Shown: positions 1 through 1,044 of the stretch, in pieces
Numbering within the stretch: position 1 is the stretch's first letter
Layout of the letters: each line of letters begins with the position of its first letter
Assembly (NCBI RefSeq): GCF_014696135.1
Contig: NZ_JACJPP010000011.1
Location: forward strand, 248,001-312,000
Direction of reading: 5' to 3'
From: Nodosilinea sp. FACHB-141
GTDB lineage: Bacteria; Cyanobacteriota; Cyanobacteriia; Phormidesmidales; Phormidesmidaceae
DNA: 64,000 bases
Translations under genes and position numbers: made by a program
The notes under the pieces: model-generated
Seen by the model: only the letters and a program-made list of their open reading frames with translations
Databases searched by the model: none
What the model was told of the DNA's origin: nothing

Positions 1-435
1 CCATTGCCGCCCGTTCACCAAGCTCCATACGGCTATCTGAACAGTCTGGAGGGCTTGGCTGATTCCCCCACAGGCCAGGTTCCTGCGATCGCACGAAGTG
101 AGCCAACCGCTCCATGCCTTGCCCGGGTCGTGGGTCGCGGCTACCGTGAGATACTAATAGATAAGCTGTCGATGCAGATGCAGACACAGGCAAACTCTAA
201 CTCTCTAAACAACAGCAGCAGGTCATCCACACACCGCTCAACCCTGGGGCTAGCGCACTACAGAGGGAAATCTTGCCGCCTTACAACAGGTAGTGCTGGC
301 CCCTCATTATAAAGATTTAGTTCAAGGCGTCTGGTATCGTATCCATCAAAAGGTATGAGGGTTAGTTAGCTCGATATTTGGCGGCCCCAAGTAGCTCAGC
401 TCCCAGACCCATTGTGGTAAAGTAAAAACTGGTTT
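1..435. other. No confident gene; possible partial ORF at the left edge
   Basis: I see no gene I can defend here. On the minus strand an ATG at 113-115 opens a frame of 38 codons without a stop that runs off the left edge. It begins MERLAHFVRSQEPG and could be the N-terminus of a truncated gene, but no ribosome binding site is evident and I do not recognise it. A 102-codon plus-strand frame from 4 has low-complexity, unlikely composition. The stretch just before 436 should contain the tRNA promoter. Confidence 0.3.
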
Positions 436-506
436 GCGGGTGTAGTTTAGTGGTAAAACCTTAGCCTTCCAAGCTAATGATGGGGGTTCGATTCCCCCCA
501 CCCGCT
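436..506 (+). tRNA. tRNA-Gly (anticodon TCC)
   Basis: The sequence folds as a 71-nt cloverleaf. The acceptor stem pairs GCGGGTG (436-442) with CACCCGC (499-505), followed by discriminator T. The anticodon stem is TTAGC/GCTAA around loop CTTCCAA, giving anticodon TCC, which reads GGA/GGG glycine codons. The T arm is GGGGG-TTCGATT-CCCCC. CCA is not encoded. It is followed after 7 bp by a TGTACA-type transposon end, a position typical of type V-K CRISPR-associated transposons that home to tRNA genes. Confidence 0.97.
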
Positions 507-513
507 TAAATAG

Positions 514-600
514 TGTACAGTGACTCACTATTTGTCATCGGTGACGTATCAGTGTCGTTGAGGCCAGATTTAATGTCATTGAGACATAATTGTGTCGTCA
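514..600 (+). mobile_element. Tn7-like / type V-K CAST-type transposon left end (solo or remnant)
   Basis: The terminus reads TGTACAGTGAC, identical over these 11 bases to my recollection of the left end of the Scytonema hofmanni CAST element. Inward of it, TGTC motifs occur at 533, 553, 574 and 593 (TGTCATCG, TGTCGTTG, TGTCATTG, TGTCGTCA), spaced 20, 21 and 19 bp, as expected of a row of TnsB-binding sites. It starts 7 bp after a tRNA-Gly gene. Known V-K elements insert about 60-66 bp past a GTN PAM with the left end facing the target. Possible PAMs GTT (445-447) and GTG (450-452) inside the tRNA lie 66 and 61 bp before the terminus. No TnsB, TnsC, TniQ or Cas12k gene and no matching right end were found in the window, so the element is decayed or deleted. 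The family assignment is inference from memory, without alignment. Confidence 0.68.
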
Positions 601-740
601 AACCGCTGGTGACACATTGTTTGTTTTCTAGGAAGCCTTTAGAAGGCTAAGGCTTTACCTTTCAAATTGCTTAAGGCCTTGTCGGCGCTGCTTTTTAAGC
701 CATAATCTCTAGAATTTGCCGAAGTGGCAAGGTTGCAGGC

Positions 741-777
741 CTTTCAACCTCCCCTGTTCAGGGTGGTTGATTGGGAC
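741..777 (-). repeat. CRISPR-repeat-like 37-bp hairpin, single copy
   Basis: This 37-bp stretch begins CTTTCAACC on the plus strand, so on the minus strand it ends GGTTGAAAG, the usual 3' end of cyanobacterial CRISPR repeats. It is palindromic: CAACC (745-749) pairs with GGTTG (765-769) and CCCTG (752-756) with CAGGG (759-763). Only one copy is present and I found no second repeat or spacer-length partner, so it is not an array. It lies about 140 bp inside the transposon-like end at 514-600, where a degenerate repeat of a V-K element would make sense. It could also be a chance hairpin. Confidence 0.35.
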
Positions 778-1044
778 GGCAGCTTAAATAAACAATGCCT
801 TCTGAGGCGAGTTTAGGGCAAAGGGTGAGCGTTGAACGATGAATGGAATAGCTAGCGGGAAGGACACCTTGCTGCATCCACAAGGGATAACCATTGACGT
901 TGTGTAGCTGTAGGGTGCGATCGCCCTATTTAGCCTCATGTGACCTGCCGGGCTAGCCGAGCAAAATAAATGTACACTTACCCCTTGACTCTCTAGCTCA
1001 CTGGAAGCTTCACCATAGAGCCATACGAGTTCAAAGGCTTAGCC

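Follow-up and report, generated by a model that had tools for sequence, protein, structure and literature searches.

A legible guide in a probable decayed left end of a type V-K CAST beside tRNA-Gly(TCC) in Nodosilinea sp. FACHB-141

Results

We analyzed a 64,000-nucleotide stretch of the draft genome of Nodosilinea sp. FACHB-141 (G000; 5.9 Mb in 31 contigs), located at G000:C11:248001-312000 and called the window below; coordinates refer to the window unless a contig or locus is named. A tRNA-Gly(TCC) gene, the attachment gene of the element described here, was detected on the plus strand at 436-506 by ARAGORN and Rfam RF00005. The terminus TGTACAGTGAC starts 7 bp past this gene on the same strand (514-524) and is identical in complete elements. 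It is followed by a segment that aligns with other left ends (LEs; 533-620, plus strand), in which TnsB-type sites with the motif TGTC(A/G)T(C/T) start at 533, 553, 574 and 593, at spacings of 20, 21 and 19 bp, and an inverted site lies at about 609-615. The terminus next to the tRNA and the four regularly spaced sites had both been reported in an initial annotation of this DNA, and our analysis confirms them. The motif occurs 12 times on the plus strand and 13 times on the minus strand of the window, and this is the sole place on either strand where four copies fall within 75 bp; such a cluster arose in 0 of 200 windows simulated with a first-order Markov model. The 5 bp before the terminus (509-513, plus strand) are presumably the left copy of a target duplication, judging by their position and by analogy with a congener's element that has GATGT on both sides.

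A repeat search showed that positions 639-659 are a 90% reverse complement of positions 452-472 inside the tRNA gene. Read on the minus strand, this region consists of a 12-nt truncated repeat (R*, 670-659), which aligns with the R* of other elements, followed by a 17-nt anchor (homing) spacer (658-642) that matches a plus-strand protospacer at tRNA positions 453-469 in 16 of 17 bases. The one mismatch is an A in tRNA-Gly and a G in the spacer, and could still pair with the target strand as a G-T wobble. Among 300 simulated downstream sequences, the best spacer match had 4 mismatches and was reached in 14. Scanning the loci examined, and counting only tRNAs with a unit, we identified 24 tRNA-adjacent anchor units with at most three mismatches, of which 15 were perfect, 8 had one mismatch and 1 had two. 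Further in, a single full 37-nt CRISPR repeat (777-741, minus strand) lies in reverse orientation toward the LE. The same repeat forms arrays elsewhere, on contig C16 of the FACHB-141 genome and in G005, G011, G012, G013, G014, G015, G020 and G022.

Because the guide at 658-642 fits the register of the GTG at 450-452 (plus strand), directly before the protospacer, we assign this GTG as the PAM; the LE starts 61 bp on. The initial annotation had proposed insertion 60-66 bp past a GTN PAM, a geometry that either this GTG or a GTT at 445-447 would fit. The distance and the GTG stand; the GTT is present but was rejected, since the guide register begins after GTG. A homing spacer matching the tRNA, for which the annotation had suggested a search of the genome, exists within the remnant itself. 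The annotation, which ended at 600, had passed over the anchor spacer, the truncated repeat and the CRISPR repeat further in, and the remnant reaches to about 777-806.

These features agree with the published layout of type V-K CASTs. Section 6 of PMC9938897 describes LEs that lie past a tRNA and are directed toward it, arrays in reverse orientation toward the LE, anchor units in which a truncated repeat (about 12 nt) is joined to an anchor spacer (about 17 nt), a GTN PAM, PAM-to-LE distances of 46-82 nt (with one exception of 147), and tnsB-tnsC-tniQ genes adjoining the right end. The distance of 61 bp measured here falls within the 46-82 nt given in that section. As far as the accounts consulted describe them, the type V-K systems ShCAST, AcCAST and AnCAST share with the remnant an LE past a tRNA, a GTN PAM, a reversed 17-nt anchor with truncated repeat, and 37-nt repeats. 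Unlike these systems, the remnant consists of the LE side alone: Cas12k, transposase genes and a right end were not found, and the tracrRNA is probably lost as well. On that side, we found every V-K feature considered, namely the terminus with its sites, R* with the anchor, the PAM distance, the reversed repeat and homology to a complete element. Sequence comparison supports reading the interval from 514 to about 777-806 as the decayed LE of a type V-K CAST.

The right edge can be placed only approximately, between 778 and 806. Similarity to a complete element in the congener G022 ends at 779, short of the tracrRNA region of that element, and the alignment of the window with G006:C261 sets in at about 807. 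This right flank (807-1044) is common to relatives, aligning from 853 also with G011:C15, and continues into the same downstream genes. Motif searches and alignment revealed no right end and no 5-bp target duplication to the right of 777, which leaves the insertion open at this end. An AATAG at about 847 was rejected as the right target copy, as it has no adjoining terminus, and a TGTACA at 971 was rejected as a right end, as it lies within the shared flank. Searches with G022 proteins found no Cas12k, TnsB, TnsC or TniQ in the window, where the sole match at E<=1 was to TnsB (E 0.81); the annotation had likewise listed neither transposase nor Cas12k here. With one end only and no machinery, the remnant is unable to move by itself.

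The TGTACA at 971 could in principle close a mini-element with a nearby right end, movable in trans, and just outside the right end of a CAST at G011:C19, a stretch of about 50 bp enclosed by two opposed TGTACA termini does resemble a collapsed mini-element. However, position 971 belongs to flank that G006 and G011 also have, and these two read TATACA or TATACC there; the TGTACA is without a GTGAC extension; and the FACHB-141 genome contains one full-length match only to 430-1000. We consider a mini-element at this locus highly improbable.

We also weighed whether the LE is one end of a complete CAST that extends rightward, in or beyond the window. The same contig does carry V-K genes, a Cas12k (C11, 761339-763306) and a TnsB (806550-808025), about 45 kb apart and of another V-K lineage; we record them as separate genes and do not imply that they belong to one element. 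This Cas12k, however, is only 38% identical to the Cas12k of G022, and beside it lie an LE of its own and an anchor that matches tRNA-Val(TAC) perfectly. The window from 807 onward is flank common to G006 and G011, and the machinery genes were not found in the window. Unless the assembly is wrong, a complete element attached to this LE is refuted, and we give it next to no credence. The decayed solo end suggested in the annotation is thus borne out, with neither machinery nor right end found and shared flank from 807.

For searches of whole genomes we used the TnsB and Cas12k of G022 as queries instead of Pfam PF06527 (TniQ), which gave zero matches in the FACHB-141 genome and likewise zero in controls. 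With the G022 query, we found no intact Cas12k of the remnant's subfamily in the FACHB-141 draft genome, only a broken piece. This piece belongs to a second decayed V-K locus, on C16 beside tRNA-His (L033 18944-19600 and L034 437-909), which retains an array and a perfect anchor. The C16 locus resembles the window remnant in its repeat family, in an anchor that matches the adjacent tRNA and in being without an intact Cas12k. It differs in keeping the array and the broken Cas12k piece, and next to its tRNA stands a different terminus (TGTTGAACGAC), which resembles one found beside tRNA-Gly in G012. Degenerated cas12k copies are mentioned in PMC9938897. A literature search on decayed and tandem ends, with the primary homing papers outside its range, returned no description of solo V-K left ends.

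In G022, the same tRNA-Gly(TCC) locus is occupied by a complete element of about 22.5 kb (G022:C10, about 874674-897150). Its order is right end, TnsB, a TnsC-sized gene, a TniQ-sized gene, cargo, Cas12k, array, R*, anchor and LE. The Cas12k scores 885 bits against NCBIfam V_Cas12k and matches the solved ShCas12k/Cas12k chains, and the TnsB scores 909 bits against solved TnsB. NCBIfam gave no match for the TnsC candidate and only a weak, unrelated one for the TniQ candidate, so these two genes are named from their size and their place in the gene order. Window positions 66-779 align with this locus at 79% identity, and the LE, R*, anchor and repeat of the remnant all align with their counterparts in the G022 CAST, which uses the same tRNA and the same 7-bp LE offset. 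The two differ in that the G022 element is complete, its anchor matches at 17 of 17 positions (16 of 17 in the remnant), GATGT stands on both sides of it, and an older LE scar lies beyond. This occupied site in a related genome bears out the annotation's reading of a V-K CAST left end with its body to the right.

The older scar lies in a precise position. The 5-bp GATGT before the G022 LE recurs beyond the right end, and directly past this second copy stands a further LE terminus, facing outward and accompanied by a TnsB-type site (locus L053 1095-1240; L037 near 17172). An intact CAST thus sits exactly against an older LE, two insertions stacked at one position, and since the two adjoin directly, the older scar did not block reinsertion. 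Of the seven TnsB loci of the window remnant's family that we read, two (G022 and G011:C19) have a second perfect LE terminus no more than 12 bp past the right end and five lack one; the matching target duplication was examined at G022 only.

To date the loss, we compared the locus across relatives. The sister genome G013 contains the whole remnant with the same right junction, at 95% identity over 1.4 kb, so the loss predates the split of FACHB-141 and G013. G011 retains the tip of an LE behind the tRNA and, immediately to the left of the shared flank, a broken fragment from the 5' part of tnsB (88% identity over 17 aa, 50% over 52 aa), and therefore once held more of an element at this locus. 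Among the loci read, none was an exactly empty tRNA-Gly site.

Differences between FACHB-141 and G013 number 9/435 upstream, 0/71 in the tRNA and 3/7 in the gap between tRNA and LE. Within the remnant they amount to 8/106 in the LE (514-620), 0/17 in the anchor, 1/12 in R*, 2/70 in the sequence between and 4/37 in the repeat, and on the right side to 0/29 in 778-806 and 8/238 in the flank. The three differences in the 7-bp gap exceed expectation for one inherited insertion, and later exchange near the LE is possible.

We used these counts to ask whether selection keeps the remnant, either because a related Cas12k uses its guide in trans or because its TnsB sites shield the tRNA from new insertions. 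The unchanged anchor is what this idea would predict; an intact Cas12k of the same family exists elsewhere in G013; and in G016 (C122, locus L050 12300-12645) an LE with its first base changed and a perfect anchor persist in a genome with no Cas12k or TnsB match to the G022 queries. The G016 remnant also includes a long palindrome, and part of it is similar to the sequence that lies past the array in G022. Other parts of the window remnant nevertheless vary freely, as the LE and repeat counts show next to that upstream. The LE (514-640) changed faster than upstream sequence (p=0.03; p=0.19 against the flank), and the guide half (641-782) was not slower than flank and upstream together (p=0.17). 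The LE shows no sign of constraint, and the anchor offers too little sequence to judge. In FACHB-141 itself we found only the broken piece of same-family Cas12k, and the new CAST of G022 landed immediately next to the old LE. Maintenance by selection is, in our estimate, very unlikely.

We then surveyed tRNA-Gly(TCC) flanks in 63 genomes of the family, leaving out 8 without a tRNA match. A terminus-like 11-mer with 0-2 mismatches to TGTACAGTGAC lies 3-15 bp past the tRNA in 14 of 26 genus genomes, G001 among them, and the remaining 12 show 3-7 mismatches. Outside the genus but within the family, 0-2 mismatches occur in 2 of the 29 flanks read (G052 and G054) and 3-7 in the other 27. The terminus is thus not ordinary tRNA flank; had it been so, this would have told against the initial annotation. 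G012, one of the 12, has a variant terminus, then a second LE, a perfect anchor, an array and, further in, Cas12k. On other contigs of G006 (C261, locus L052 281-400) and G004 (C374), a 3' tRNA-Gly fragment is followed by LE sequence, and G057 (C116) has a second place with a tRNA fragment and LE; the pattern is what the integration of an island at the tRNA, separating gene and scar, would produce. LE tips of about 11-14 bp stand just after tRNA-Gly in G010, G025 and G014, too few to call short tips favoured. Counting weak and distant matches, TnsB was detected in 15 of 26 genus genomes and Cas12k in 14.

Discussion

From the parts of the locus, their geometry, the homology to a complete element and the junction shared with a sister genome, all seen in the sequence, we infer with high confidence that a type V-K CAST inserted 61 bp past a GTG PAM, LE toward tRNA-Gly, and later lost the rest of its length. 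The element would have been guided to tRNA-Gly(TCC) by its own truncated-repeat anchor crRNA and would have placed its left end toward the tRNA. A later deletion, probably a single one, may have begun near the CRISPR repeat closest to the tRNA and ended in the right flank, taking with it the remaining array, tracrRNA, Cas12k, cargo, TniQ-TnsC-TnsB and the right end and leaving some 265-290 bp.

The leftover guide is probably silent and the remnant presumably inactive today. In AnCAST, a promoter adjoining cas12k drives the array and tracrRNA, and by this analogy the part that would express the guide is lost here. The silence is uncertain, because a weak resemblance to a promoter (730-702, minus strand) lies upstream of R*; the promoter scan returned two weak sites where 0.8 would be expected. 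The orphan guide may have kept a function, but we found no support for this, and we see only a small chance that guide and LE still form a working unit, used in trans by the Cas12k of related elements. If they did, a dead element would steer living ones to the tRNA-Gly site, or would hold the site.

The locus adds a further case to an established class of elements, and its guide can still be read. A tRNA flank can serve as a readable record of RNA-guided insertion, in which guide, target and end can be matched without the machinery. The pattern in the genus, with the terminus in 14 of 26 genomes and an LE beside a tRNA fragment in two more, together with the stack in G022, shows that V-K elements revisit one position. 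According to the review PMC11406308, the mechanism of V-K target immunity had not been compared with that of Tn7. The short old LE in G022 gave no protection against a new insertion, an observation that bears on target immunity in V-K elements.
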